64,000 nt of DNA from Hemicentrotus pulcherrimus. Lineage: Eukaryota; Echinodermata; Echinoidea; Camarodonta; Strongylocentrotidae. The notes under the pieces were generated by a model that was not told the origin of the DNA, did no database searches, and saw only the letters and a list, made by a program, of their open reading frames with translations. The stretch covers positions 175,866 to 239,865 of the forward strand of contig BEXV01000182.1 in NCBI GenBank assembly GCA_003118195.1. Reading direction: 5' to 3'. The position numbers were made by a program, and so were the translations under genes. The first letter of the stretch is position 1, and every line of letters starts with the position of its first letter. Below are positions 781 through 47,809 of this stretch, piece after piece.

Positions 781-3700
781 AGTTTTATTGCATCGTTAAA
801 GAATAGGGTCCTTTATTGTGGGCAGCGTGATAATGCTTCATTAGTGTTTATTCCATTTCAGTAATACTGGTAGATGGATGGCAGTGGGTCATATATTATA
901 AATGTATGAGGTTTTGATGATATTCTGGTAAAATTGAAAAATTGAAAATGAAAAAAAGAAAGATCCCCTCTCAATGAGTCATGACAATTCATAGACATTT
1001 CATTTTATTAGTTCATGGGTCTTTAACCAGAGAACAATGTGTCTGAAAAGTTCATGGCACTATCGAACAGTGAAGGGATCAGATTATTTGGTAATCTTCA
1101 AATGAATATTTTGTTACACAGTATATCAACAAAATTATTATTCTAAAGAATGTATCCCATGTTAATATTATGCCATGTTAATTTATGCCATCATATTTGA
1201 TGAAAAATTCCTACAGGATTATCTTTCATGAACAAAAATGGATTACAAAAAAATATGAATACATTGTTCATTATCATTGGATTAAAATTTTAAAAGGATG
1301 GAAAATAAGCATATGAGGGTTCCAAGTCTTAGTCTTCATGAGATGTGGAGATAGCATGACTAGGTGTGTGATGAATGAGACCAGAAACATATACATGTTA
1401 AGTACATAAAGGTAAGGGCTCATCCTAAACCAATATAACACCAGTCGATGTGAAACAGAGAAGTAGTATGTGTTATGTATGCAGTTTATGAAAAATCATA
1501 CCAAAAAGTAGTATCTTACCAAAAGCAGACATGAAGGTAGAATTTTGAGGGCCCATCCCTAACCAATTTGACACTAATATAATTTGATTGACAGCATTCC
1601 TCAAGGTAAACAGGGTATTTTTGTATCTGATATGACTGTATATACCTGCAGCCCGAAGTTCATAAAGTACCTCGCATTAAATCTAATTACTGGCTACTTA
1701 AATGTTTTATACAGGTTCTGGGTGAATCAATCAATTTGATGATCATTATGAATTCTGCCTCTAAGCTATCATGACTATCAAGTCATAGTGATAGGACTTA
1801 GTATTTAAATGATTTTATGATCATTGTGGTGTCTAACAGTAAATAGATGCAGTTTTCACAGGAGGAACATTTGTCTGATTAATCTATTGATTCATGGTTA
1901 TTTTGCAGCTTTATTACAATTTAAAAAAATGGTTACTTTGAAAAACCTCAATCTCATATGAACGATCCCTTCTGCTTTCATATTTTATACCAGTTTCCAT
2001 TACCTCACCATGGTTGTTGGTTTGTGCCTGGGTTATGCACATTGTGGGCACTTAAGCTTACCTTATTAAAGAAAAGGTTGAGTTCTGGGAAGAGGTGAAA
2101 AATAATTTGTGTGCGCTATCATTCTTATTATGCAAGTGTGGAAGAACATCACATAAGACATGTTCCCTGAAAAGCATGGCTCTTCAAATGCCTTCATATT
2201 CTAAATATGACATGAAACATCGTAAAAATCCAGGGTAGGATTTTTACACCACATGTTTGTGTAGACCCATACATCTTTCTGTGTACAGTGTTTGTAACTT
2301 TACCAAGACTTGGCCAAATTTGTTATCATTTTGATGATTCCAGAACCTTGCAATACACACAAATTCTTATATGCTAGATGATCAACCTTTTCTGGTCGAT
2401 TCCACACTGTTTCTTTCACGATGCAATCGCATGACCAGAACTCAACTTCATCTTTAAAGACTGTCACTCTTTTATGTTTCATATGGATTTTGTAAGACCC
2501 AGGGAGTTTTATTTTTAGAAAAGAAGCAAACTTGGGTTTCTGTGAGTTTCTGTAAACTGACATCAATTAATTACCTACCAAGGTAGTCCCGTCACTAAAC
2601 GTGATGAAGGCCTTTCTTGAGCTGAGGGAAGACCGTGCCAAGAGGGGAGCAGAACTAATGACAGGTTTCATACAGGAAGTTTGAAGAAGGATAGTCGTGA
2701 AATGGAATAAAAAAAGAGAAAGAGAGAGAATGGGCAGTAAGCCAGTGCGTGGACCCAGGGTAGGATAGGCTCTGCAGAGCTTTTAGAGGCTTCTGTTGAG
2801 GTACTAACAATACTTTTAAAAGACTGATAAATTTGTGTGAATGGCTGGTGGGAACTCTGCATACTCTGTTTTGCCCCCTTTAAAAACAAGCCCCAAGAGA
2901 ATACTCACAAGTGCTCAAAAGAAGAAATGTTTTAACCGATCGACTACTGAATCCTGGCTCCTTTAGAGCATGGATTAAAACAACTCACATTCACATGTGA
3001 GCTGGTTGTATACCGGTAGATATATTTTATTGTTAGCAAGTATGCAACATATTATGATCAACACTAGAAGTTATCTTTTTTCTGTAGAATTTGGGCTGCA
3101 GAATTGTCCCAACACAGAAAAGTACATGTCACAAAGTCAAAGCTAAGAAAGAAGATACTAAGAGGCTGACAGAGGCATTTTCAGCAATATCTCTGGCTAT
3201 AGGGATGTGGACAAAATTGCCCAGATCTCTTATGTATATTTTGAGTGCTACATAGAAAACAGAAGGATTGTCCTATAAGTTAACATGAATTTTGTCTTTC
3301 AAAGCATGGTGTTTTCTTAAGGAAAAAAACTAATTTCTTCAGGCATTATATCCATTACATAAAATATGACACCAATCACATATCAGTAGAGATTATTACT
3401 TCCGTAGAATTTGCTAGATCCATATCAAATACTGCTCCAGCTGTTTCCCAATCATTATATCCTTTCCAAGATTGCTGGCAAAATTTTAGATTGATGCTGT
3501 AATTGATTGAATGAAGAGGTGGAGTTCGGAAGTGCAATATGTCGGAAATAGTCTGATATTGCAATGTATAAGTGAACCTGTGCATATGGGGTGCTTTTTT
3601 TTGCATGATGCCAGCTCCAATATCCCACATGGGATGAAGATTTTTTTTTTACAATGAGAGAGAGTCTCGTTTACATTGTAGATTAACTGATGAGCTGAAA

Positions 3701-4626
3701 AAAGAAGGGAATTTTGTCTAGAGCTCTATACTATTAAAGAAGAACACGATGCAGTTGCATTTGAGCTGAAAATTACATTTACACGCTACAGTTTACATTG
3801 AACAAAAGCAGGTCATGCACTTTGAAAATGTGTGAGTAACATTAGTTGATCTGCAGTTTGTCTTTCATCGTATAGGATTTCAGAGATGTTTCCGTCTAAA
3901 AATGTTGCAGTTGAGATGATCTGAGGTTTCGATGTGCATGGGATCACATGACATTCAAGACTGGTTTATTCACTCTTGAATATCATGTACTCTTGTTTAT
4001 TTTTCATCAGATAACCCATTATAATATATTGCATATCAAGTTTTTTCTTTCATACCAAAATATTCCTCACATCAATTCTGTAGTATAGTAGGTTTTAGCT
4101 GAATGACTTCATTGTCATTGATAGAGGTTATTAATACTATAATGTTGCAGAAGCTAATCTCTAGTTGAGAGATTTCATCAGTTGACTGTATGTTGACCCT
4201 GACCTTCATTCATTTCTGTTTTGTTTTGAATGTGCACCAATAAAATTGACTTGGATATCAATCTTGACGAGGCAGCATAAAGTACACTGAAGTAGCTACA
4301 ACCACATTAAAATCTGGATAATCTTGCATGAATCAGTTAGCTGATTATGAGATGACATGAAGATTATCAAGCTATTTTTAGGGGAAAATTGCATTGTACT
4401 CATTTAAGCCATTTGTAAATAAAATCAATTCAGTTAGTGTATAATATTGATATAGGATTACCATAATAAGCAATGAACCTACAGTCTAACTAAGGGAGTG
4501 GTCATTTTGCAAGTGCCTGAAAAAGTTTTAAAATCTATTTTGAAATAGATAATCAATAAGTTCTTGCAACTTTTTTTTTGAGATAGTCAAGATTTTAGAA
4601 AACAGAATAAACATGTGTTGTCTTCT

Positions 4627-4710
4627 GAGAATTGGAAGGTCGCTAATGCTGTGTTAAAAGACAATGACTTTTAACAGAGTGAAAGCCCTTTTGGCTCTTA
4701 ACAGGTGATA
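4627..4710. repeat. Palindromic element copy 1
   Basis: The right arm (gcccttttggctcttaac, then aggtga) matches the family arm. The centre holds a 9-bp perfect inverted repeat, TGTTAAAAG at 4652-4660 and CTTTTAACA at 4668-4676. The left arm is decayed. Confidence 0.6.
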
Positions 4711-6659
4711 TGTAATGTGTCTTTATTTCAGTAAAAAAATTGAATACCGGTAATCTGAAGTTTCTTTTTGATATTTCTCAATGAAGGATTAGGCAACAGT
4801 CCATTTCAACATGTTGGACATAACTTATCAGAAGTAAAGTAAAACTCGGTACGTATTTGAATTTCAGTTTTCAAGAAGACTAATATTTCATCATAATAGA
4901 AATCATGTCTTTATCATTTTTTTGCAGGAAATATGGGGGAGTGTGGATGTGACTTTAACCCACTTCTGTACATGTATTCATAAACCACATTGCACTTGCA
5001 ATAGGAGTATCCTGTTATCGCTCAGACTTTTTTTTGTAAATGGATGAAAAAGATTAATAAAAACATATCTGAAGGCAAATCCGTCATAATTCTTCCTGTT
5101 TTTCATCTCATAGCTAATCCCATGTTACTGATTGTGATTGACGGCTTAAAGTTCAGCATTTATTTTTTTAACATTATGTGCATCAGATCGCTTCCATTTG
5201 AATTATTATTTAGTACTGATGAAATCAGTACTGAAAAAGATGATTTTTTAAATTTACAAATAGGTCTTTGTCTTATTGGTAAATTTGACTTGTGTGACAT
5301 GATTTGTTTAGACTAAGACTAAGATTTAACAGTTCTTGTCTCTGTCATACACATACACGTATTTGACTTTTCTTCTTGATTTGAAGCATGCATGCTGACC
5401 TTTCTTCATTCCTAAAATTCATGATGGACTTGATGGTACAGTTTTCTATATCGGTCATATTTTGTAGCTGGTTTCTTTACCACCCAGATATATTATCAAA
5501 TTCAAATAAGAGATGTTAAATTGTCGAAACGTTCTCAGTTGGAGAACTTACCTTGAAGATTTCCATACATGAAAAGATGGATTTTTGTAGACTAGAGAAG
5601 GAAAACATCAATGCTACAGGCAAATTACTCCCTGGTCAGGTTTGTTCCATTTTTATGAGACCAAACCATATCGAGGTGATCAGACCATACTCTCATCAAC
5701 TTTATTTGAGGTCAGAGGCATGTACTTATCACCCTGTCGTATGCAAAATTTGATAAATAATTCAAGATGAGAATGCTACTCCCATTCAAAATGCATTAAC
5801 AGACAGTGCATATTGAAAACCAAGCAGTTATTAGGCAAACTAACTCCTTGGTACAACCAGAGTGAGTTCCCCCTGCTCCCAATGAAAATGGTCTCCCATC
5901 ATCTCCAAGTAGTTATAGACAGATGAAGGTGTGTCATACCAGAGACATGGTTCAAATCAAGTCTAGAGTAGGTAGATACCTAACAAAACTGACTTTTAAG
6001 TGTGGAGTAAGTAGTATAAATCCTTTATTTTATAAAAAGCCAAAACAAGGGAATTGGTCTATCAGCTGCAGACTTGATACAAGATGGTTTTATTCACAGA
6101 GAAGCAGAGAACAGCCTCTATGCAGGGCATTTTGCAGGCATGAAATTTTCTATGTCTAGAAGGCTAGGAGTGTTCATTGGAATATTCATTGTAGTAATGT
6201 CATCCTGCAATGATGTATGAGGGCAGAAGCCTTGATGGAGTTGCAATCTAATTAGGATAGGCTATTTTCAGTAACATCTCACAGGTTTCCATTAAGGAGG
6301 CAGTCTGGAATGCTGTCAGCCAATGATGGCTGCTAACATTCTGTGTCAAGGCTACAGTAATACTTGTAGGTGTCCCCTTCAAGACCTTAAGATTTTTTTT
6401 TTTTAAACCAGGAGATATAATTTATGGAAATTAATTGTAAACTATGCACATATATAGCTACTCTTTTCAATGCTAACTTAAAAAAAACATCGAATTCTTG
6501 GTTGGTTTGATGATTTGGTTCCTTTGATATGCCAATGTAATGAATACCATTGTGCCATTACTGTTATTTTAACATTTCTAGGGCGGAGGACTGTACGTAA
6601 CTTGGGGGCCATGTCCAAAAATAACAGGAAAACACAGGCCCCAAATTTCGGTCAATAGC

Positions 6660-6683
6660 CCCCCCCCCCCCCCCCCCCCCCCN
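6660..6683. other. Poly-C tract ending in an ambiguous base
   Basis: Twenty-three C residues are followed by a single N, a sequencing limit at a homopolymer. Confidence 0.9.
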
Positions 6684-8050
6684 TATGAACAGGCAGGATA
6701 CACATGTAAGCCCACGTACCTTCCTAAAAAAAAAGGTTAGAGTGGAGCAATTCTGTTGAGTAAAGAATGTTTGCTTAGGGCTTGATGATCATTGGCTTAA
6801 AAACTTTGCTGACAGTTATTATCAAGAACTAATTTTGGTATATTGCTATTTTATGTGGTCTTAAAATAGTTTTGAGTGACTTTTTACACTTATTTACCCT
6901 GGAGAGGGCCAAAGCATTTTAGGCTAATAGGGGCCTGACTCTCGGTTCTTCCAAAATATTCTTTGTAAATAGACTGTGATAGAAAGAAGATGATTTCCCT
7001 GTCAAATCATCACTCATCTCAAGACTCAAATGGAGACTCTGAAAAATTTATTGATAAATGCACTACATCTCAGTCATTAGACAAGAGTAAATAAACTGGA
7101 GGCAGTAATTGAAGTAGGGAGCCTGGTTTTGATGATGCCACGTAGCTTTAGCTTTCGCTTTCACTCAGCGGCAGACAGGACTGCTCATCACAACTAAACT
7201 ACTGACCACCTACATCATAAGTGAAGGGAAGTAGCCCTAGGAAGAAATGGGTGAATATTTCCCCCTCCCTCCCCCCCACCACTTCATCCTACATGTAGTT
7301 CCAAGAGGGTCAGAGGAATAAACAAGAAACAGGTTTAGCAATAGAGAAATTTGCAGGAATACATCCTTATTAAGCCATGATTCATGAATTATGTACCTGT
7401 CACAGAAAGATTTGAATATAGACATTTGGATTAGTTATTAAAAGTGTTAATAAAATTGTATTTCATGATTTCATAGAAATAGGAGAGTGGGTGGAGACAA
7501 AAGTGTGTTGTTGCAGAGAATAAATTAGCCCATAAAACAGATGAGAAATTGTTTGCTAAGCAAAAAAGAAACCCAGACCCCACCCCTTCTCCCTTACTAT
7601 GTATCGTGCGCAAATTACTACCTTTAATCAGGGACTCGCTATTATCAAATTGTTATATTTTCCCTGACAGCCTTCCCCAAAGATACAGGTTGTTATCGAG
7701 AGTGAGTTTATGAGTTGTCATAGATCATTTTACATAAATCAATTAGACTTGTTTTGATGAGCAAAATAGATGCATATTTTACAAGATAATAGTCGGATCT
7801 CTTATCGAACAAAGTTCATGAAGACATTATTCTTGTCAAGGAAGGATTGAAATTATCAGTCTGAAAATGCAATTTGATGCAGAACAGAATCTAACATAAG
7901 ACAGGGGAAAGGCACATAGGATTTGTGTGTGTAGGGGGGAGGGGGTGGAGGGACAGTACAAAAAAAGTCAGCAGCAGCAAACAAAAGATCTAACAGAATG
8001 ACTAATTTGAAAAGTATTTCAATATGTTACAGAGCCATGGAGTATAGAGA

Positions 8051-8129
8051 TCATCTGTTCAGAGCCGGAAGGGTGTAAACTCTGTGTTAAAGTATACAAG
8101 TTATCGCCCTTCTCGCTCCAAACAGATGA
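8051..8129. repeat. Palindromic element copy 2
   Basis: Both ends are intact: TCATCTGTT at 8051-8059 and its complement AACAGATGA at 8121-8129. Next come cagagccggaaggg and cgcccttctcgctcc. This is one of the best preserved copies. Confidence 0.8.
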
Positions 8130-8713
8130 GATGTGAAACCTTGAGGATCACACCTAAAATGGATGGGTAAGACTAAGAATTGAAAAATAGCCAGCAGATG
8201 ACTCATCAGAACCCTCCTTTCCGCCAATCATCACTGTCCTTGTATTTCTTTGAAGATTAACTGACTTTTAAAACAGGGCTTGACAACTTTTACATAGAGC
8301 AATTTTTCATATTTAGATGGGGGTATAATGGACACAAACCTAAAAAATTACAATCAGGACCCAATGTCCAAACAAATAATTGTTGATCCCTGCAAGGTTA
8401 TAGGCTCAAGTAAGACAAACAGGTCCAGTGTATCAGAAGCATCGATCTACATGTACACACATTTTCTCCAATAAAAAGAAAAACTTTTATGCATTTTCTA
8501 AAGAGTGCCAAGTTTCTCATCATGTAAAATAGGTCAGGATATGATAACAATGGAATATGGAAACAGAGGAACTGCTGTTTCAAAGAACCCTTGAAAGATG
8601 TGTACTCATGTTCTCCAATTATTGTTTCCAATTCCATCAGCAAAGGCACAAACATTTGTTGGTAACCCCAACCATCTGAAACTTAAAGGCTAGCAGACTG
8701 ATATGTGCTACTG

Positions 8714-8788
8714 TATGCTGAGAGCCAGAAGGGCATTACATATGTGTTAAAGCATATGAGAACATATCATTCTGACTCTAGGCAGACT
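8714..8788. repeat. Palindromic element copy 3
   Basis: The left arm reads gagagccagaagggcatta and the right arm atcattctgactctaggcag. The centre contains tgtgttaaagcatatgag, shared with copies 2 and 6. Confidence 0.7.
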
Positions 8789-8887
8789 ATGGTATCCATA
8801 AGCATAACAAGTTTATGTCTGTAAATCCCCAATTATTTCCCCTGGGAAGACGTGGCCCACATCTTCTTCTTCCCTGATCACCCCTAG

Positions 8888-9009
8888 AGACTGTTGTACA
8901 CCACCTACTCCTGGAGGGATGCATCCACACCAGTAACGTCTTCAAGGAGATCATCTTCACAAATCAAGACTTTGAGAAGTTTTGGAAAGAGGATAGAGGG
9001 TCCAAGTGA
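8888..9009 (+). CDS. Possible terminal exon of an unrecognised gene
   Basis: After a CCCTAG acceptor-like site the frame starting at 8890 reads TVVHHLLLEGCIHTSNVFKE, then IIFTNQDFEKFWKE and DRGSK, and stops at TGA 9007-9009. Balanced composition with aromatic and charged spacing looks protein-like, and local GC is raised over 8840-9000. No partner exon was found upstream and no family was recognised. It could be the 3' end of a gene or a relic. Confidence 0.25.
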
Positions 9010-12000
9010 CTCTGTCTTTTGTACCTCTATGCTAATGTTTTGTGTTCTGAGTATTCATCTAGGACACATTGTAAGAAACCTTGGTTGATATCTGCATTCA
9101 TATGCGTTTAATCATGAAATGAGAACTTTGAGGGTGCATTAATGACATCTCTAAGAAGATGTGTGATGTGTTTCGAAGGATTGTGTTACTCTTTGAAGTG
9201 TGTCAAGCAGTCTGTCTGCCAGCCAAGAACATATCCACTCACTTTGTTTAGTGCAGAGAGAGGTTTAGACAATGAGTTACATGATATGATGATGGTGATG
9301 GGAGCCAGGGATCCCAGTCTAGGGATTGGTTTGTTTAGGCTCTATGGGATATATGAGTCGGAGAAGTGTTACCAGTCTGCTGATGCCAATCATACCTTGC
9401 CATGACTCATGTGACAGGGGTGTATTCCGTCGATCATTGAGGTGTGTTCACATTTGTCAAAAAGTTCCTGTTGCTGTGAACTTCAGGCTATTTCATTGGT
9501 TTAGTGCTATGATATGTAGAGTTTGATAAACATTTCCTTTTGGTTCATAATATAGGTGTGATAGTGTTGATATGAGAATCTCCTGGATTTCTCAGAGATA
9601 TTGGAAATTAGATAGAAGATGTTACCCGTTGTAGAATGATTTGTTAAGTTATCAAGAAATTCATTATCAGAACCTAATCTTTGGCTTCCATATTGAGACG
9701 TGTCTCAAGATTGAATTTGACAACTGTCTTGACTTTGAATTATATTTTTCATATATTCTTCACATGCTGCACGGATAAAAGATTCTGTGCAATTTGATCA
9801 ACTGGGTTAGGACCCTGTATAGTATTGTCATTATCATACAATAGCTCTTGTATTTGTACTAGCTACATGTACATGTAGACAATTTTAATATTTAAAGAGA
9901 GATTGTGTTTAGATAAGACATGATAATTTTTTTTTTTTAAATAAATATTTGCTGATAATTATGACAGCAATGTTAGAAAATAAACATGCATATTTGTTGA
10001 AAATCCCTCTTTATGCTCTCTCCAACTAGCCGTAGGGTCCATGCTTTTTAACAAAACCCATCCTCATCTAAGTTTTGCTATGTAAAGATTTCTAAATATA
10101 GAATTCATAAATGAGTGCAAATGATTCAAAAAGTTTTTGTGTATCCTGGTCATATTAATGGTAAAGTTTGAAGGATGTACGACGACGGTGAAGGTGTGTA
10201 TACAAGTAATCCCTTCTGATGAGTAACTGTCACTGCTCCTGTCCGCTCTCATTCAGCTTCTGGTCGTGATGGCCCAAGCTCCTGTTCGCTACTCATAATT
10301 TGTGGTTTGCAAGGATTTCCTCAGAGAAATTGAGATAATTTTATCTGTTGGTTGAAGCATGCCCCTGTAATTGGATTACTTCTCCCAAATTTTACTGCTT
10401 TATAAATTGATCCAATACTCAACTGGAGTTGCGTTCAAATTACTTGACCCATCTCTCTTTCGTTTTTCGTTGAATATAAGAGATAGAAATTCTGGTTTGG
10501 ATTAGCTAATCTATACGGACTTGTGATCGAATATGACCAAACGGAAGCAAGATGACATTGACAATATAGATAAGGGATAAATGATGATTAATATAAAAGA
10601 TTATTAAGATGAAAATAATGATATCACCCATCTTTAGAAACCACAATGATTTATTCAATGGATGATAAACCACACCATCCCTCTTGGAGCCTCACTTGAC
10701 TGAAGTTTTGAACTCACAGGGCCTCATTTTAGGATGCTTTTAGTACTTTTCATCAACATTTGTGTCATCTTTAATTCCTCGGTTATCATTTTCCTAGCAG
10801 GATCCAACCTGTCATTATTTATATTTGACAGGTTTTAATGACTCACAGTAGTCAAGCTGTTCCAATGGCTGACCAAATTCAGTGATAAGATTTTAATTTT
10901 TTGGCCAACCTCTTTCTTTCCTTTTGACCCTCTCTCTATAGGTGTCCAGTTCAGTGTCATATTATAGTTTCCTCTAGTAATTTGTGGTTTATTTGATGTG
11001 CTTGTATCAGTAGGGTATTTCCCTGTCAGAAATTGAGCAGAAATTAATAAAAACAGGGGCCATGGACGAAAGAGTAGATGTGAATGAGGGACTCTTCACA
11101 CGAAATGGGCAAAGGCAAAAGAACTTCATTTGAAAATTTGTTGAGAACAGAGGTGCAAGATATGAAAAGGAGGCAAAAGATGGAAAAGAAATGGAGAGAA
11201 AAGGATGAGCATACTGAATCTAATTACTTTGTGATATCTTCAGTAAACACACAGTAAACCCCAAACAACTACGAAAATCAAAGCCATTTAGATGGCCAAG
11301 GGTAATACAGGATTATAGACATTATTCCATTTCAAGGCCTGCAAACAAGTTAACTGGAAGTTTACTTTGGGCATGTGTGTATTACTCTCAACTCATTTTT
11401 TATTTTTGTAATTTTTGGTAAGTTTACAGGCAATATCTCTGTCCATAAATTATAATTAAAACAATGACATTGTTATTTGGAAGAGGTGAGATATTGAGTG
11501 AATGAGGAGGCAGAGAAGGTGGAGTAGTAAGGGAGGGTATAAAGGGAAGATATGGGAGTAGAATAGAGCTTATAATTAGATCAAATATATCAAATACATG
11601 CAATATTTTGGGACTGTCTGGCAAATCCGCTTTAAAGTCAAAGACTGAATTGAGAAAAGGCTGTGAATTCAAAGGTCAGTGCTAACATGAAAATTCACCT
11701 GATGTTAAACAGAATCAAATCCTCCAATGCTCACAGGAAGAATAACGCCAACATGAAACAGGTGACATTCGATGAAGACAAGTACATTATGAACGAGGTA
11801 CCAGACGAGTACTGTTAACATGAAAATTGGGAATGTGGTGATATTTATATTTCCATGGTATGGGAGATGGGAGTAGAATGTATAATTTAGATAAGATGTG
11901 CTGAGAAATCTACACCATGAGGGTGAAATAGGTATGAGAGATATAAAAGGAAGACAGTGACAGGGTGTGCTGGTGATAAGATTCAGAGAATAAAGAATGT

Positions 12001-12719
12001 TAATTCCAGGAGCAAAGCTTGTTTATTGTCACTGTCTTTGGTCTATCTTTTGAGACAAAATTGGACATTAGGGGGAAGATGGTTGCAGTAAAATTCAGTT
12101 TAAATTTATTCATCTATTTCTGCATAGGTGGCTGAACTTCTAACAATGTATTTAGGCTCACTAGTGCATTAATTCTCTGAATAGAATGATAGTGTGGGTG
12201 TTTTATTATATGTGTATCATATCCATAAAATGAATGGACTAAACAATTTTATCTTACTATCTTTAATGTGACAGATAGTAAACTAATTTGATATCATTAT
12301 CATATACTGATTCAACCTCAGAGAAATATAGTTTATGATCAAATTTTGCCTTTATGCCTGATGGCTTTCAAGAGCTTGGTTTGAAAGAACCAAATTCCTT
12401 TTCAATACCGGTATACAGGATAAAAGCAATTAATTAATTTGTAGTGCACACGTTTCCCTCCGGTGGACATGCACTTTAGCATACATGCCCAGGTCCTCAT
12501 TGAATGGAAATAAATGCTTAGACAATCATTGAACCATTTTTATCAGTTATCACACTTCATAGCATATACCAATTTCTGTATCCCTATTTATACTAGAGTT
12601 TTTGTGTCTATGGAGTAAACAACGATATTTTCCCACAGTTTAAAAATGTTATGCTGTTTTCCAAGATAAAGGAGGATCACTCATGCATCTGACTTGTTCT
12701 TATTGGGAGGGGGGGGGGG

Positions 12720-13106
12720 NNNNNNNNNNNNNNNNNNNNNNNNNNNNNNNNNNNNNNNNNNNNNNNNNNNNNNNNNNNNNNNNNNNNNNNNNNNNNNNNN
12801 NNNNNNNNNNNNNNNNNNNNNNNNNNNNNNNNNNNNNNNNNNNNNNNNNNNNNNNNNNNNNNNNNNNNNNNNNNNNNNNNNNNNNNNNNNNNNNNNNNNN
12901 NNNNNNNNNNNNNNNNNNNNNNNNNNNNNNNNNNNNNNNNNNNNNNNNNNNNNNNNNNNNNNNNNNNNNNNNNNNNNNNNNNNNNNNNNNNNNNNNNNNN
13001 NNNNNNNNNNNNNNNNNNNNNNNNNNNNNNNNNNNNNNNNNNNNNNNNNNNNNNNNNNNNNNNNNNNNNNNNNNNNNNNNNNNNNNNNNNNNNNNNNNNN
13101 NNNNNN
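12720..13106. other. Assembly gap
   Basis: 387 N residues directly follow a G homopolymer. Any open frame crossing it is meaningless. Confidence 0.99.
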
Positions 13107-15406
13107 GTAAAAATTACGATTAAAGGGCACATATCAGAAATTTCATAATTTGCGCGTTATGCCTATAAAAGGTGAATTTCGTTCACGTCATAAATCTACA
13201 TGATATTGTTTTATAAGAATTTTTAAGCAGTATCTCGCTTTTTTTCTCTCTATTTTGTCTCAAGTTTTAGTTGACCAGCCCACCTATACTTGTTCCAAAC
13301 AAGTATTATATGTCTAGTTATTTCTGTGCTGGAAGCGGGAAGTGTGTAAGAGTATTTTTGATGATGTTTTTGTCCTGTTGCGTGTAAGTGGGCTGGATCC
13401 CTGCCAGTATCAAATAGTTGATCAATGTGAAGGGTCCTTCAAGGCCAAGTCAAATAACACATGGTTTTAAAGGGAAATTGCAGGCCCTGTTCAGATTAAT
13501 ACTTTTTCAGCACTTTCAAGTTCAGGTTTTTGAGTACACTACTTGAGTAAAGTGTGCCATCAGAAACTTGAAATATATCACATGCAAAGTGGTCCCTAGA
13601 AGTAGCAAGTCATTAAGTGCTGTAAAGTGTACGACACTCTCTTATTAGCCTCTGATAACTCAGGATAGAATTGCATGATATAAAAATGATATAGTCTCCA
13701 ACAGGTTAAAAATCTTTAAACCTCCTCTTTGCTCTAAGATGTTTGTCCTTTTACAATATTAAGAGGGTATTCAAAGAGCTAAAATGGAAAATGAGTGGGT
13801 GTGTTATTGGGAGTTTGCCAGGTGCGTGACTCCTTGCAAGAATCCGAAGGAGGAAGAGTTTTAAGAAATGCAAGAATGAGACAAAGATCTTTGAAAACAT
13901 GCTCTTGAAAAAAATGCCTCCATGTTTTTTTGATTGAATTGAATTTTCACTTTTCATAAAGTATGTGGAATATAATTTCTGAGTTGTTCAAATGTAGATA
14001 AAATATCACTTTCACATTCTTATAGGTCACATCAAATGATATTCAGATACACGTAACTTGACCATTGAGCAGTGTGAATATTATTTTATTTTAAGTGAAT
14101 CGCAAATGGTGTCACCTGTCCAGTGCTCAGTTACTGGGAAACTTATAATTTTTAAATCTCAATTGGACAATGCACAACATTAAGGCATTTGAATACATTT
14201 ATCCTAAGAAAAGAGGAAATTTAGTGTGACAAAAATCTCTTGTGAATTTATACTTCGTAATCAAGGAGACTTTTCATGAGCAACAGGAAATTAACACCAA
14301 AAAAATGTCTCACATTAAGTAGGCCATGCTCAAAATTACTGCAACCTACGCATTATATAGCATTCTTTCTGGCACATTTCTGTTTTTCTTTTTTGGTGGG
14401 GGAGGGGGAAGGGGTCGCAGGGTGCCATTAAAGTAGTCACACCAAGAAGCAAAAGTGATTTGAATTGATGCAAAATTCATATCATTGCGAAGGGAAAGCC
14501 TTACTGATCAATTACAACAATTTTCCTCTTCAAAATATGTTTTGGGCCCGCAGAAATCAACTTTCAAAAATGTTAGTTTTGAGATCCAGATTTACTGCCT
14601 ATTCGTATTTTTTCGTATTTTGTCGTAGTTCTTCGTGTGACGTCACACCCTGGACACGGCTGTTAAAAAAAGGCTGCTAGCTTCCGCTTGGTCTGCAGCT
14701 AGACGCACTAAGCGGAAGCTAGCAGCCGGTACCGAGCTGTTTGTCCAGGGTGTGACCTCACTATTCAGAGCTCGCTACGCTCGTTTGTTTGGCTTACGTT
14801 CGGGGGCGCTTGGGGGTTTAAGAAGGGTCTTGAAAAATGGCATTTTACGCCTCTCCACGATATCAATATGATTTCTCAGCAAGTTATTCGTGTTTTTCAA
14901 GAGAAAATCTTTCCATCCATATGTAATTTGTTCTAATTATCAGTTTTTAGTAAATTTTCTTTGTGTAGCTCCTTTAAAGAATCCTGTCAAGTACAGTGAA
15001 GTTTGGAGGACCGTTACCAATGCAAAGTGCTTCAACCCCCTCTTAAAGTGATTCTATTTTCAAGGAAAATGGATTGTAATCTGGGTGTATCTAGTGTTGT
15101 CCATAAAGTGGTCCAAAGAGCATATAAACTTTATGTTTTATCCGGAAAGGACATTTTCATGGAAGGAAAGGACATGATCATGGAAAGAACATTATCAGAC
15201 ATCTTTCATGTTGTAGAGCAGTCTGCAAAATCACCCCCTATGGAAAAATCTTGAAATCTTTACATGATTTCAAATTTCAAATGTGTAGTACTAATTTTCT
15301 TTAAAACTATACCTCGACGGAAAAAGCTATGGATATTTATCTGATTTCCAAGCAACTTTCAAATCTGTTTATCACATTTATCTTCTCTTTTTGTGTGTAT
15401 TTACAG
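13107..15406. other. Intron or upstream DNA before exon 1
   Basis: No exon is recognised. It contains the foldback element at 14637-14761 within a CpG-richer patch (14.5-14.9 kb). Confidence 0.5.
14637..14761. mobile_element. Foldback (MITE-like) element with 125-bp hairpin
   Basis: The outer arms 14637-14656 and 14742-14761 match in 19 of 20 positions (GTGACGTCACACCCTGGACA against the complement of its partner). The inner arms 14672-14689 and 14710-14727 are an 18-bp perfect inverted repeat (GGCTGCTAGCTTCCGCTT) around a 20-nt loop. GC and CpG content is far above the surroundings, and the 14.5-14.9 kb flanks share this, so the hairpin may be one part of a larger nonautonomous element. No transposase is seen. 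Confidence 0.6.
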
Positions 15407-36773
<21,367 letters not shown>

Positions 36774-36800
36774 TATTAAAAAGGGTGATTAGTTTTTCTA

Positions 36801-36940
36801 GATGAAGTCAAAAACCTTCACCCGACCCAAACAGACACCAAGCACCAAGTCTAGTATGATTTCACTGGCATTGATGCCATCAGCCTAGAGTAAAGACAGC
36901 AAGGATGGGGGAGATTGAAGGAGGTGGGAGAGCAGTTTAG
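36801..36940 (+). pseudogene. Decayed tandem copy of the coding tail in the 3'UTR
   Basis: This stretch repeats the last 147 nt of the coding sequence (36627-36773) with an offset of 167-174 nt and several small indels. Shared blocks include caagcaccaagtc, gagtaaagacagcaaggatg and gagagcagtttag. A TAG interrupts the copy (gcctagagtaaag) and the indels break the frame, so it is noncoding now. Confidence 0.75.
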
Positions 36941-37942
36941 CAAGACAGAGTTTTTATGGCTTGAAGAAAAAAAAAAAGGATAAGAAACAGAAAGTGAGGT
37001 ATCATCTAGATTCCCATAAATTCATGTGGTGTTAACCCTTTACAGACTTGGATTGACCAGTGGAACAAACAATGGACTACCACAATCGACTTTTTTTCAA
37101 GTAAAGTGCATGTATCTTTTACTACATAAAATGTGGCAGTCTGGTGTTTTGATCCATGAAAAGTAAAGAGTAAATATCCTAAGCAAGTGCTGCATACCTA
37201 TATAGGGCATTACAGATCACAGCCATGTATCTGAATAGAACACTCCTGCATATGTATTAAATGATGCTATATAAAGTAGCCCAGCAAAATACAACACATA
37301 CTCAAGAAAAAAAACACTTAGAATGGGCCCAAAACAACACAAATTCTGCTTCTATATTTTTTCAACACTAATGGAGAAAAAGAATGGAAAAAACAGAAAA
37401 CAATAATGATAATCAATGTCCTTACAAGTGATGTGAGAATCACCAGAGTATACTGTTTTACAAGAATACTCTCCCTCGACCTCGCTCACAGACAAAAATA
37501 GCATAGCGCCACCACATGTTGAATGGTGGTCAGTCATAATTGCCCCCTCTCTTCCCCTCTCATGAAATATATTTTGTTTGAAATGTTTACTGATTCTCAG
37601 AAAAGTAGCATTCAATGCAATACCCTACTGATATTTTTACCAACAACTACCCGGTACATTATCTTCTTCTGACAGATATGTGTATATTGTGTAGTGAGAC
37701 TTCCGATTTGTACAATCAGGTACTGTGTTATTATTCATCAACTGTTAGATTTTGGTCTATTTCAGGTAGATTTCAGGATTTTTAATTTTTTTTTGGCATT
37801 TAATAATTTGCCAATCAACTCATGCTGTTAGCAATATTATGCTTCTGTAATACATTTGTTTTATTTGGTATGCAATGACATCCCTCTTCCAATTTCTTGC
37901 CAATATTATAATGTACCTTTCATGGTTAGTTACTGTATATTG

Positions 37943-38018
37943 TTTGTTTGGAGTTGTGAGGATGTCAACTCTGTGCTGAAGTGTATGACGGAATGCTCTT
38001 CTAGCTTCAAGCAGATGA
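37943..38018. repeat. Palindromic element copy 8 (in the 3'UTR)
   Basis: The left arm gtttggagttgtgaggatgt and the right arm ctcttctagcttcaagcaga are diverged, but the aactctgtgctgaagtgtat centre and the cagatgat end fit the family. If the 3'UTR call is right, this copy is transcribed in the mature mRNA. Confidence 0.5.
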
Positions 38019-38199
38019 TGTTATCCTGTCATTGACTCAAAATTTATACCTACAATTTATGCATTTTCGTTCATTCTTGCTTTCATTTTTGACAGGGTTG
38101 CATTTGTCTCTATGCACCTATGTTTATTATTGAATTTATGTAATATTTATTCATAGGTTGTGTGCTCTATATAACTCCATTTCTGGGCAAAGGTTTTCC

Positions 38200-38205
38200 A
38201 ATAAA
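38200..38205 (+). terminator. Candidate polyadenylation signal AATAAA
   Basis: A canonical AATAAA lies 1.4 kb after the stop codon, in AT-rich DNA. Further AATAAA hexamers occur downstream (for example near 39515 and 41888), so this one is chosen only as a plausible first strong site. Confidence 0.4.
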
Positions 38206-41200
38206 GATGATTGAAAAAACAACTCAGAATGCTCTATAAGATATTATGTTACATTTTCTAGAAGATGACCCAATTCTTGTCATACAAGTTTACTAATAGC
38301 CGCATGTTTGCCATGGTTTAATATCTTGGGGTTATTAATAGTAAGATGTTGAGACTATAATTAGAATCTTTAATTTACTGATAATTGTACAGCTCATGTC
38401 ATCTCATGGAAATGTAATGCAATGTTTTTTTAATCAAATGAGTTGTATATTGTCAATAGGCTTGTGGCATTCTTCAAGAAAGGTATCTGTCAGAGTCTTT
38501 CAAATGAGTTTCATAAACTTTTGCTTCTGTAGCAGTACTTATATTGTCATTACCGGTAGAATTAATTTGATGTTGCTGCTGTTTCTGCTAATTAAAAGAA
38601 GGGTGGGTCCCAAGATTGTTTATACATTTTAATGATAATGCTCTGAATCCCTTTTGAACCAGCCTAGAAATATGCATGAAAGAAATTTAAAAGTTCACAG
38701 CAAGTGAGCTTTAATTAAAATTGATATTCAATATGCATTATTTTTGTAGTTTCAAGTTTTTGAGAATCCCTGTCTTTCTCATCATAAAATGATTAAGCTT
38801 CATGCTTTTATTAAACCACTTGTGGTCGGAATAATCCTATGCTTATTTGATACTTCCAAGATAATTGGTTGTATTCTCGACATAGAGATTTGTAATGATC
38901 TGAGAAAGAACGAGATCTAATCTTTAATCCTGTTTCCCTCATTCACATACCCAATACAGTGTACAAGGGAACATTCAAAATTACTGTTGGCTTATTGTCA
39001 CAAAGTTGTAAGCTCATATCCATTTAATATAATCAATGCCTGATCTGGCTGTCATGAGACAGTTCATTGCTGCATGTTAGTGAGATGACATTTAAAGATT
39101 GAGGTCAGTAAAATAGAAATGAAGGATATGTAAGAAAATGTAATCACTCATTGTTGCTTTGTGCAGTGGAAGAGAGAGTAGGCATGAAGCAAATGGCCCC
39201 ATTCAGACCTGATGCAGTAAACCAATTGAAAAAAAACCTGCAGCAGCCGAACTTCAAGTGTGAATGAATGCCATGTGGCAATATTTTGTCTTTATAATGG
39301 GGAGGGGCGATGGGTTGTAGCTGCAACTATCATCTGCATTTAACTCACTGATCTGTGTGTTATATAGTGAAATATTGCTGCAATGTGTTTCTCAACTTTT
39401 AAGCTGTTTACATCCTTGTGTCTGAAAGGGCCTTTACTGTGCAATAATACTGTAGCTCATTGAAATGAGGGTCCATGTCATGAGGGAATTTAGCTTCAGA
39501 TATTTCCGGTTGAAATAAATCATCTACACATGAGAATGAATTTGATGAATGATCGAAGTGGAATCTTTCATACTCAGAAAAACTATATCCAAACAATTTG
39601 ACAATCATTGATCACAAAATCCATGAGTGCATCTCATACCCATTAAATGGATGCTTATATATTTCATTCTTTCTTCATTTAAAAGTTGAATTGTTTTGTT
39701 GATGTTGTAGAGGTAAATTCAGGCAGGTGATGTGTATTACTATTGCACCTTGTCTAAGTCTTGTTTGAAATAGACCAGCTTCAAGTATTTAGATATGGTC
39801 AGACGTAAATGTATTCCCACCTAGATGATAATTCATCAAAACTTTCTATGATATCATAAATATATTAATGCTGTTTTACTTAACTATTTATCAATATTGT
39901 TGACATGTTGGACTTCATTTATCATTGGTCATAACAGATTAAAATAATGACTAATGTTCCCTTACCGCAAGGACTCATTCAATTGTCTATAGATTTCATG
40001 TCCTGTCTCTTAATGATACCCTCAACACTCTTTGAGAGGTAACATAAACTGGATCCATAGTGTAAGGTGTGCTGGGTCCTATTTAATCCTCTTATTACAG
40101 TAAAGACTATAAAGTAATTTACTATTTATATGATATATATTTCCCAATGACATGGTAATAAGAAGCTGAATGGAGGGCCTCATGAATTATTTTGATAGCA
40201 TAGTGACAAAGAGGACCTCTGAACTTGTAGACTACATTGTGATATAATATGTAAATAATTGTGTATGTATATTTTGTATGATGATGACATCTTATATAAC
40301 GTGTCTATATTGCAAGGTTTTGACAACGAATTCATGTTTGTATGATACAAAAACTGTTAAGGCTTTAAAACAGTGTTTCTACACCCCTTCTTTCTCTCTC
40401 TTTTCCACCTCTCCCTCTCTTTTTTCCTCCACTCTCTCCATCTTTATCTCGATTTCTCTTTCCTCTTTCTCAATCTCTCTTGGTCAGACATGATTAAAGT
40501 AAGAAAAAAGTTACCTGAAAATTAAACGTAATATATTTTGTATGTAAATTCATATACATATACATGTTTTAAAGTAATACAAGTAAACAGTTTTGTGGTA
40601 CCCCTAAATCTTTCACAAAGCCAATCATGACGCTTTTATTTATACTGGATAGGTAAAGCGAAATTTAATCTTTGCCAAATTAGTGTGCTGTTTTGTGCTG
40701 GGACCGGTGTATTTTTTCACATAAGCCCAACTATTGGTGTAATATTATGTAGTGCAATGGATGTAAGTATTTCAACATCTTTTATATTGTATATTTTAAG
40801 TAAGTTATAGACATTGTAGTTTTATCTTTTAAATGTTTTATTTTATCTTATTAACTTTCATTTCATAGAAATAATTGTGTTATTTCATTGTTTTTTCTTT
40901 GAATAGAAGTAAGATTATTACTGAGACTGTACACATTTCTAGATTTCATTTCAAAATCACTCTTCAAGCACATACACAAATATGTAGATTTTTTGTAAAG
41001 GTTTTGTATTTGTTCATAATTCCTCATGTGAATGTATATGAGATACAAGTAATTATATGAAGATATGTAACTAGCTTGCCATTTGTCATGCTCTCCGATT
41101 TTTTTTCTTTCACTTTATATCCTGAAATGATTTCAACTGAAAGAATAAAAGAGAGAAATCTACTTTTTGGTTTCTTTCTAGGCAGAGACATTAAGGTGGG

Positions 41201-41681
41201 ATCAATACTTTTTCAGGTGAAGAACAATTTTAAAAACCAGGTTAGGGGATTTAGATGATTCTCTCTGTTGAAATGTGATATTGTGCCCCAGGGTTTGGAA
41301 TATAGTGTGCTCCCACATGTGCAATCTCGTTACCGACAAACTCAAGAAACCTGTTGAACATCCACATTGTTCTGACAAGGGTTTTGTCTTATTTTTCCCT
41401 CATTCTTATGTAAATGGATCCAATTCTCATTATCTGTCACTGATGGCCCCTGTGCATGTGCATCTTTAGCATGTGTCATCTGCAGGTGCTGTCTACAATT
41501 TTGCAGTGGCTCAGTTGGTGGGCCATTGGTATATTGTTGTCATGTAGGAGAGATCTCAACTTCACATGTGTGATTTGAGATGCACTTCCCTATTTTCTAA
41601 GAATTTCCTGTGAATTCAAGCCATTTGGGTCTTATGACATGCCTATAATCCGTCATGAATGTATCTCAAATCTTGGTTATG

Positions 41682-41763
41682 TATCTGGCTTAGAGCCAAA
41701 AGGGCATTATGACTCCTGGAATACTTGTACACAGCCTCTTCTGGCAGGCTCTGAACAGATGAT
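41682..41763. repeat. Palindromic element copy 9
   Basis: The left arm ggcttagagccaaaagggca and the right arm cctcttctggcaggctctga pair with a small bulge; the right end is gaacagatgat. It lies downstream of the gene. Confidence 0.65.
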
Positions 41764-45119: not shown

Positions 45120-47809
45120 GGAAGCACAAGTAAGGAAGATAGAGAGGGAGAGAGAGAAAAATTAATACAATGTACGCAAACTTTATGTATTTGCATGCAT
45201 GAATCCGATGTCATGGGTAACAATAACTATAATTTAACTAAATATGCAAATCAAGTTTACGCTGAGAATGAAAACTTTCCGTGCTCGTATAGTCGTATCA
45301 CATCATAATGACTGGGTTTATACAATTCTAAAGGACTTTTAAAACCATTAGCCCGCCTTTAGTCCCGTTTTAGTAGGGAGTGTCCGAGGAATAAATCATA
45401 CCAGACACCAATATATGACACTTTCTATTTCTACTTTCTCACTAATGCTATTTTTGATACGGGAAATACATTTGTCATGGATTAAATTACTGAGATCATG
45501 TAAATCCACGTTAAGTTTTCCTGTTTTTATATTGCCATGGCCGATCATGTTTATTCATGTTTCACCCAAATTTTTTTTTTTTTTCTTTTCTTTCCTCCAT
45601 AGCATCTGACGTCAATACACATAGGAAACGAGGTCATTGTGAAACCCCTTTTGCCTCTAAACATGTACTTTCGAGGACATTAAATTATTAATATAATAGT
45701 TATCGAAACAATGATAATGGAATCATCAAGCATATACATGCAAATTATGAGGATGATATAATGTAACGATATATAATATATAACAATGGAGCTTAAGACC
45801 GTCTCGCATTTACTAAACCAAATTCATTGTGATTTCCGTCAAAATACAGGGCATCTACAAACGTGCGGTTGCCATCCTATTTTCATAAATCTTTGATATT
45901 TCCCCGCTGCAGATTGAAATTTAAACTTGATTCCCAAGTGGAAGAGGTTTCTATTATGTCTTCACCTTTATCTCCTTTCCACCCCATGAGTGGATTTTAT
46001 TACTCATTTCAATTTAGTATTTTGATATCATGACCGTGGGGCACAATTTCCATGCTGGAGTCAGTCTCCAAAATTCGAGCGGAAAAGGTGCACGAACCTT
46101 TTATTTTATCATTGATTTTTGAATATTCTTAGGTGGATATGGGAGGGGGGTGTTGTAAACAGAATACGGAAGGCAGGTTTTTAAAGCTTGTACAAAAGCC
46201 CAATCGTTTTTACCCTTGGATATCACGCAGATAGGACTTTAATTGTGTTTGATCACGTATTTCAAAACGACTTCATAATATGTTTATGAAGTTTGTAAAT
46301 GTAACATAACGGTTTATCTGATGTATGATTTAATGATAAATAAAGTATACTACCCCTTCAAATGCTTCTGTTTATCACTTTCACTTTTCTATTTGTCGCC
46401 TTCATCTGAGTAACTGGTTTTGCCATTGATAACTGGTCCGTGTTCTAAAAAAATGCTTTTGTCCGGAAATCGGGTTTAAGTTCGAGGCCTTAGGTTTCCT
46501 TTTGTTAAACGTGATTTTAGACCTAGGGTCTGGTTTAACCGAATTAATAGAATACGGACATATCTTCTTATTCTATTCTTCTTTTTTGTTACTTTACAGA
46601 TACTCCTGAGACTATCTAAACCACTGTCCCGAATGTATTGAACATCAATACAACGAGGACACCAATTTGTAAGCTTATATGACACTTCCGAAGTTTCATC
46701 TCAGTAAACTATGCGACTAGAAAACCAAGCTATACTTTCCGTACTTGCCGGCCTTAATATGCCATAACCATTATGTGAGCCTACTTTAAAAACAATGTGA
46801 TATATCAATGCCTTTATGGTTATTAAAGTGCTTTCAATCTTCCTCTACTACTTTTCTGACTTCTAATTTCCCTTCTTTTTCCCTTCTTTTCCCCCTTATT
46901 ATCTTCATCTGCTATTATGCACTTTCACTGAATTGGTCATTCTTGTATTGTTTGTTGTCCGAATGGTAGGTCATTATAAGGTAAACAGTAATGGACTGGG
47001 ATACTGATGAATTTCACACACACGCACATTCACCGTATCATAATTTGGCGCAATCATGCTTTCATTTCCATGATTAACACTCAATATGTTGGACAATGCC
47101 TCTCCTGCAAGATTGACGGGAAAATGGCGGAAGAGACGCCATGTGTTATTACGCTAACTAAGACACCTCTTGTTCCGGACGTTGGAGGAAGGTGAATGGA
47201 GGGAAGGAGAAGGCAGGATGATGGAAGAAAAGGTCGTCCACGAAGACAGAGTTAATCGCTCAGGTTGTCAAACAGACCGATGGTGGTATTGAAGAGGTTT
47301 AAAACGAAAATAAGACACAATTCATAGTCTATACCAACTTACACGCGCACACACGCAAGCACACATACACCAGAATATTAGAAGTTGTGGAAGAGACAGG
47401 AAAAGAGGGATTACGATTAAAAAGAGAGGCATAAACAAGTAAATACATAAAGGTAAGCAGGTGTATAGAGCAGCACCCATCCCATCCCTCCAAACAAATC
47501 AGAAGGAATCAGGAGAAAGGGGGAGGGAGATAGAGAGAGAGAGAGAGAGAGAGACGCGACGGACTTTGCTCTGTGCGCCAAATCTCAATCATCTCCACTT
47601 TGAAGTACGCTGGCATTTCAACCAAATATTATAGGTAGACGATTCTTTATGATGTACTCCGCTTCATGAATAGTTCGGGAAAAATACAGAGGTCATATCC
47701 TGTGATGCAACAATATGTATTGTATTATTTACGTATGAGTTTGGTGTCTAAACCAAAAATTTGCCAAATTCTAATAATAATACATTTACTTTTTAATGTA
47801 CAATGCCTT

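Follow-up and report, generated by a model that had tools for sequence, protein, structure and literature searches.

The palindromes scattered through a 64,000-nucleotide stretch of the genome of the sea urchin Hemicentrotus pulcherrimus (GenBank assembly GCA_003118195.1, contig BEXV01000182.1, positions 175,866 to 239,865 of the forward strand; hereafter, the window) are copies of a 77-bp miniature inverted-repeat transposable element (MITE) that consists almost entirely of its terminal inverted repeat, an identification that we make with high confidence. It is based on four observations: the sequence is dispersed as a unit with sharp ends, it is accompanied by the duplication of an ANNT target, it is present in high copy number, and its copies have decayed fastest at CpG dinucleotides. 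A preliminary description of the window had considered both miniature inverted-repeat transposons and a structured RNA or hairpin-precursor family; the sharp 77-bp boundaries, the unrelated flanks and the target-site duplication bear out the first of these options.

The unit and its dispersal in the genome

The alignment of the copies defines a family unit of 77 bp, made up of a 31-bp arm, a 15-bp loop and a second 31-bp arm, with CGTCTG at the element ends; the consensus folds with 29 symmetrical arm pairs and four further pairs in the loop. Beyond these boundaries the surroundings are almost always unrelated: the comparison of 100 flanking pieces from 50 places of our first copy set, which is the set it covers, yielded only four matching pairs. 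Two of them reflect the shared surroundings of a pair of neighboring palindromes in the window (15525 and 15602), one is a local duplication in locus L022, and the fourth matches L007 with the window pair, where each stretch contains a second palindrome. L007 holds a similar two-copy pair, with ATAT between the copies. The unit is short, non-coding, dispersed, high-copy and bounded by terminal inverted repeats, as is usual for MITEs.

Genome searches, all of them conducted in the 414-Mb host assembly, revealed that the family extends far beyond the window. When one mismatch was allowed, an arm 21-mer was found at 614 places (318 forward and 296 reverse), and its reversed control at none. The assignment of the assembly to a sea urchin is borne out by COX1 on contig C4061, which has an open frame under the echinoderm code as well as under code 5 and, translated with the former, is 95% identical to entries of Prionocidaris, Echinocrepis and Cidaridae/Eucidaris. 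The one-copy query and the consensus query returned 323 and 1429 first-look candidates, respectively; 40 were scored in each case, every one of them a match (82-100% for the one-copy query, taking the better strand). In addition, 20 arbitrary 10-kb stretches (131,684 unmasked bases, three stretches being all N) contained four full copies (two in L022, one in L025 and one in L028) together with partial ones, and the corresponding density of about 30 per Mb extrapolates to about 12,600 copies genome-wide (Poisson 95% interval 3,400-32,200). The density of the window, 10 copies in 63.6 kb, is higher than this sample would predict (p~0.003 against the four sampled copies, 0.015 against six when the partial ones are included), a comparison that is biased since the window was chosen for the palindromes themselves.

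At G000:C77:264586-265696, three exact arms are spaced by 545 bp, and a tandem repeat array seems to have captured the palindrome. Three exact 18-mer matches in viral contigs were attributed to chance: L001 is by eye phage-like coding DNA without the palindrome, and L002 and L003 have the same sequence around the match.

Target-site duplication

Target-site duplications were found in three sets of copies. The first comprised 42 of 51 aligned copies, the others having scored low or lacking ends, and its expected counts were obtained by re-pairing. The left and right 4-mers were identical in 13 of these 42 copies, compared with 3.4 expected, and the middle dinucleotide in 23, compared with 6.6. 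When the boundaries were shifted from -2 to +2 and the length was varied from 2 to 8, an excess of exact matches (p<0.05) was limited to the 4-mer and middle-dinucleotide windows. The second set, of 20 new copies, presented the same signals (middle dinucleotide 9 vs 4.0 expected, p=0.004; exact match 5 vs 2.3, p=0.027). The third set was fetched with one inner arm 21-mer alone, which leaves the element ends free of selection; exact duplications occurred in 8 of its 62 copies against 3.8 expected (p=0.016) and middle matches in 19 against 10.6 (p=0.002), and the 52 copies whose partner arm exceeded the 99% shuffle level gave similar values (exact 8 vs 3.8, p=0.013; middle 17 vs 9.6, p=0.005). 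When the three sets were pooled, 26 of 124 sites had an exact 4-bp duplication, compared with 9.2 expected: 15 ATAT, four AAAT, three ACAT and four singles. In the pooled data, coupling was observed at the two middle positions and, to a lesser degree, between left -1 and right +4 (74 vs 66.3, p=0.02). The 32 matched middle dinucleotides of the first two sets were most commonly TA (13), and also included AA, GA, CA, TT, GT and TG.

From these results, the target has the form ANNT, ATAT being the commonest, and the duplication is best read as 4 bp. A duplication of 2 or 3 bp in an ANNT context may also account for the data, because the outermost position is uncoupled and exact 4-bp matches are limited to those 26 sites. 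We considered one version of it, a 2-bp duplication with T...A element ends, which was favored by the first two sets, where the edge T/A (105 of 124) exceeded the outer A/T (85 of 124; p=0.004). The queries for these sets contained those edge letters. In the inner-arm set the two counts did not differ significantly (87 vs 78 of 124, p=0.28; 74 vs 69 of 104 in the stricter subset), and 4 bp is therefore preferred over 2 bp.

Decay of the arms and the absence of covariation

The pattern of decay argues against selection on an RNA. A family of structured RNAs or hairpin precursors (microRNA-like, for instance), carried in introns and with its stem under selection, would be compatible with the folding of the consensus, with the location of several window copies among the exons of a gene and with the precedent of the human palindromic element MADE1, which gave rise to microRNAs (PMC1784062). 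Nevertheless, we regard an RNA kept for its fold as extremely improbable because the arms do not covary, decay is fastest at CpG, and stem and loop are equally diverged. The four CpGs of the working consensus had a mean divergence of 0.43, compared with 0.090 for the loop core and 0.084 for the other positions beyond that core, so the stem is no better conserved than the loop. Seven sites that are mostly CA or TG (267 CA/TG, 62 CG, 36 TA and 69 other among 62 copies) behave as lost CpGs, and the arms become identical over 31 bp when CG is restored at them. CG is nearly absent at three of the seven, those at 0-based positions 8, 45 and 67 of the consensus (2, 1 and 1 of 62 copies), and position 67 presents CA only, with no TG; we infer that CG was ancestral at these three as well.

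The two arms change independently of each other. In 62 copies, 1555 of 1793 stem cells were paired, compared with 1562 expected, and double changes numbered 30, compared with 36.7. After the realignment of 33 copies with MAFFT, 86.8% of the cells paired, a value equal to that of the shuffles, with 10 double-change cells against 12.5 expected; when the partner columns of these 33 copies were shifted, only 32-48% of the cells paired, an outcome inherent in a palindrome. Paired CpG sites were uncoupled or slightly anti-coupled between arms (13 vs 13.8, 5 vs 7.4 and 9 vs 14.3). The arm pairing kept by diverged copies, noted in the preliminary description, is the result of independent decay in two originally complementary arms, that is, an inherited symmetry. 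Furthermore, the search of the window against Rfam retrieved no family at the gathering score, and dispersal with target-site duplications is also at odds with an RNA origin.

Arms without a partner and the search for a longer parent

Special attention was given to places found through a single arm. Our search listed 87 exact-arm places, of which 76 were fetched for this purpose; of the others, two were tandem and were set aside, and nine belonged to sequence retrieved earlier. A partner arm within 70 bp and above the 99% shuffle level was identified for 52 of the 76. A looser count based on forced alignment gave 62 of 74, but it let through at least one interrupted copy (L105), and the stricter figure is preferred. 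Some of the 24 arms with no such partner belong to decayed palindromes that lie at the threshold. L105, L147, L157 and L160 are palindromes cut by a TTAA-ended repeat of about 390 bp, located by eye at the loop TTAA in L105, L157 and L160 and at an arm TTAA in L147, and L109 is cut by another repeat. Behind the arm, L110 and L124 contain a second palindrome. Over 151 bp, the sequences of these last two, which lie in opposite orientation on separate contigs (G000:C200 and C533), are identical, and they perhaps represent haplotypes left unmerged or a duplication; pairs of this type could supply empty sites.

The partnerless arms (24 of 76, or 12 of 74 by the looser count) would be expected if the palindrome formed one end, or the core, of some longer repeat, with the 77-bp units as fragments or deletion products beside longer forms, and L025:7873-8198, whose arms lie 326 bp apart, resembles such a form. 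We rejected this locus as the parent, given that its interior belongs to a different repeat, itself dispersed and about 83 bp long (L025 about 7913-7995). When 40 of 487 genome candidates for the interior were scored, one was the locus itself, and the other 39 matched the interior repeat only, over 52-87 bp at 80-94%; none of the 39 spans both arm and interior. Moreover, most arms have their partner at the expected place, and the shared interiors belong to other repeats (13 of 16 one-armed places were compared, three with another palindrome being set aside). One-armed copies that have a single interior in common, closed by the same arm at its distal side, would be the mark of such a parent, and none came to light. 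A longer parent repeat is, in consequence, very unlikely in our estimation. The ends of the 83-bp repeat are inverted by eye, and it is perhaps another palindromic MITE.

It is important to note that several observations weigh against the MITE interpretation. Regarding the target, the exact 4-bp duplication is present in only 26 of 124 sites, left -4 is not coupled with right +1 beyond composition (68 vs 67.0), and the edge T/A excess of the first two sets loses significance in the inner-arm set. Since the first two sets were chosen by their similarity to the palindrome, they understate decay. Regarding the unit, there are the 24 single-arm-fetched places with no partner above the shuffle level, among which L091, L113, L114, L146, L152 and L158 are one-armed without explanation and share no common interior (L158 has one 26-bp match to L025). 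Finally, no autonomous element with the palindrome ends was identified among the 76 arm places and the 20 arbitrary 10-kb stretches.

Copies in the window

The window was searched with a profile whose seed comprised eight family copies, including one from the window, and which was iterated on fetched sequence, with E<1e-4 as the cut-off for counting. As a control, random sequence generated from the same loci under a first-order Markov model yielded nothing below E=1 (best values of 1.3-1.9 in four rounds). Ten copies were identified (Table 1), which confirms the nine palindromes of the preliminary description close to where it placed them and adds a tenth. The preliminary description called the palindromes near-perfect, but most of the window copies, those at 4627, 8714, 24464, 33740, 34799, 37943 and 41682, are well decayed. 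The loop is in the opposite orientation in three of the ten (15525, 33740 and 41682).

Table 1. Copies of the 77-bp element in the 64-kb window.
Feature	Coordinates	Strand	Observation
Decayed copy, longer centre	4621-4708	+	Profile match
Best-preserved copy	8052-8128, 77-bp element (profile 8051-8129)	+	Exact 4-bp duplication AGAT at 8048-8051 and 8129-8132
Decayed copy	8715-8787	+	Profile match
Opposite-orientation pair	15522..15684: 15526-15597 and 15602-15680 (profile 15525-15596 and 15610-15681)	- and +	
Decayed copy	24461..24536 (profile 24463-24536)	+	Profile match
Tenth copy, absent from the preliminary description	33740-33814	-	Profile match
Decayed copy	34799-34865	+	Profile match
Decayed copy	37941..38018 (profile 37944-38018)	+	Profile match
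Decayed copy, indel in one arm	41683-41762	-	Profile match

The copies of the opposite-orientation pair are separated by the four bases ATTT and have ACAT on either outer side (15526-15680). The remaining seven copies lack an exact 4-bp duplication at the boundaries scored; outside those boundaries, the copy at 33740-33814 has ATTT on either side by eye if its ends are shifted by one base. A weak profile match at 28138-28193 (E=0.003) was left out of the count. The confinement of the copies to the first 42 kb also holds, as the last 22 kb has no profile match at E<0.1, its single weak arm match being located at 45642-45663 (E=0.38); for ten uniform placements, the post hoc probability of such a gap is about 0.014.

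Plus-strand exons in the window match the domains PH, PH and MyTH4, the second PH falling slightly under the curated cut-off, and the MyTH4 exon also matches myosin-X in PDB (E=0.002). Several copies sit among the exons of this gene, and the copy at 24461..24536 lies about 30 bp past the putative donor splice site, placed by eye, of the first PH-domain exon. The earlier notion of a family carried in introns holds only loosely, since the family is dispersed over many contigs.

Other repeats in and around the window

The TTAA-ended repeat of about 390 bp that interrupts some palindromes is itself dispersed. It is present on the minus strand of the window (2062-2464), in L026 (2494-2891) and in L014 (2905-3314), in a shorter form in L030 and partially in L015. 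By eye, it has inverted ends (AGATAAAGTTGAGTTCTGG...) with TTAA at either end, like a TTAA-type MITE, and an 88-aa open frame on the minus strand of the window (2300-2566) overlaps it. We considered whether the palindrome is a hot spot for this repeat, given that it was found at 4 of 76 arm places compared with about 0.5 expected (from five copies and 1521 TTAA in 195,279 bases). This was not borne out by the genome-wide search for the junction pattern with at most two mismatches, which gave 18 matches (0 in the control), few of them with an arm by eye. A further strong palindrome at 14637-14761 of the window has nested inverted repeats of 20 bp and 21 bp, 95% complementary, and is not matched by the family profile.

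Proposed mobilization and comparison with known elements

A unit of 77 bp leaves no space for a gene, and its transposase would have come in trans from an autonomous element that carries the same inverted repeats. This enzyme would have bound the arms, cut out the unit and pasted it at an ANNT target, producing the short duplication best read as 4 bp; the inserted copies would then have decayed, fastest at CpG, and the hairpin shape would be a by-product of the near-complete terminal repeat, without RNA selection. This mechanism holds no surprise. The palindromes appear to constitute a new MITE family of the ordinary kind, which may already stand in Repbase or Dfam; our literature searches retrieved no title or abstract opening naming it, and the arm 13-mer was absent, in either strand, from the main texts searched.

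Sola2 elements produce 4-bp AT-rich duplications of the form AWWT, the printed examples being ATAT, AAAT and ATTT (PMC3627910), and because of these printed duplications a Sola2-type transposase is our best candidate, as a lead only. The comparison concerns the duplication: 19 of our 26 exact duplications are ATAT or AAAT, whereas seven (ACAT, AGAT, AGTT, GCAT, AGAG) fall outside AWWT. The chances are about even that the MITE was moved instead by another group, such as ISL2EU (target A|AT|T), Tc1/mariner, whose members, including the mariner of MADE1, duplicate TA, or an undescribed ANNT group. That TA is the commonest middle dinucleotide speaks for this alternative, but 19 of the 32 matched middles are not TA, and their variety contradicts a strict TA as well as a strict AT. 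The ISL2EU target is likewise flanked by an outer A and T, and its ends usually start with GG (PMC4482050). Here, the middle dinucleotide is varied and mostly TA, AT being found in only one of the 32 matched sites, and the ends start with CG. The duplication resembles that of Sola2 more than that of ISL2EU.

Other short elements offer looser parallels. Coral CMITEs, of about 100 bp, may stand in tandem, a habit loosely like that of the palindrome pairs described here, but they duplicate TTAA and are better conserved in the interior than at the ends (PMC2872659), and in both respects they differ from the sea urchin element.

The closest known analogue is MADE1, a non-coding human element derived from mariner, which is a near-perfect palindrome of nearly equal size, its 80 bp being divided into a 6-bp centre and an inverted repeat of 37 bp on either side (PMC1784062). 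The sea urchin element could belong to an undescribed or little-known ANNT transposase group, with many transcribed intronic copies that feed the small-RNA machinery of the host as MADE1 copies did in humans, a possibility to which we assign a small chance. Now that its unit, ends and target are defined, the family can be masked and counted, and, as an invertebrate analogue of MADE1, it should help to establish whether hairpins of this kind turn into small-RNA genes. The two elements nevertheless differ in sequence and host, in the 31+15+31 bp architecture and CGTCTG ends of the sea urchin element, and in its duplication of ANNT rather than TA.

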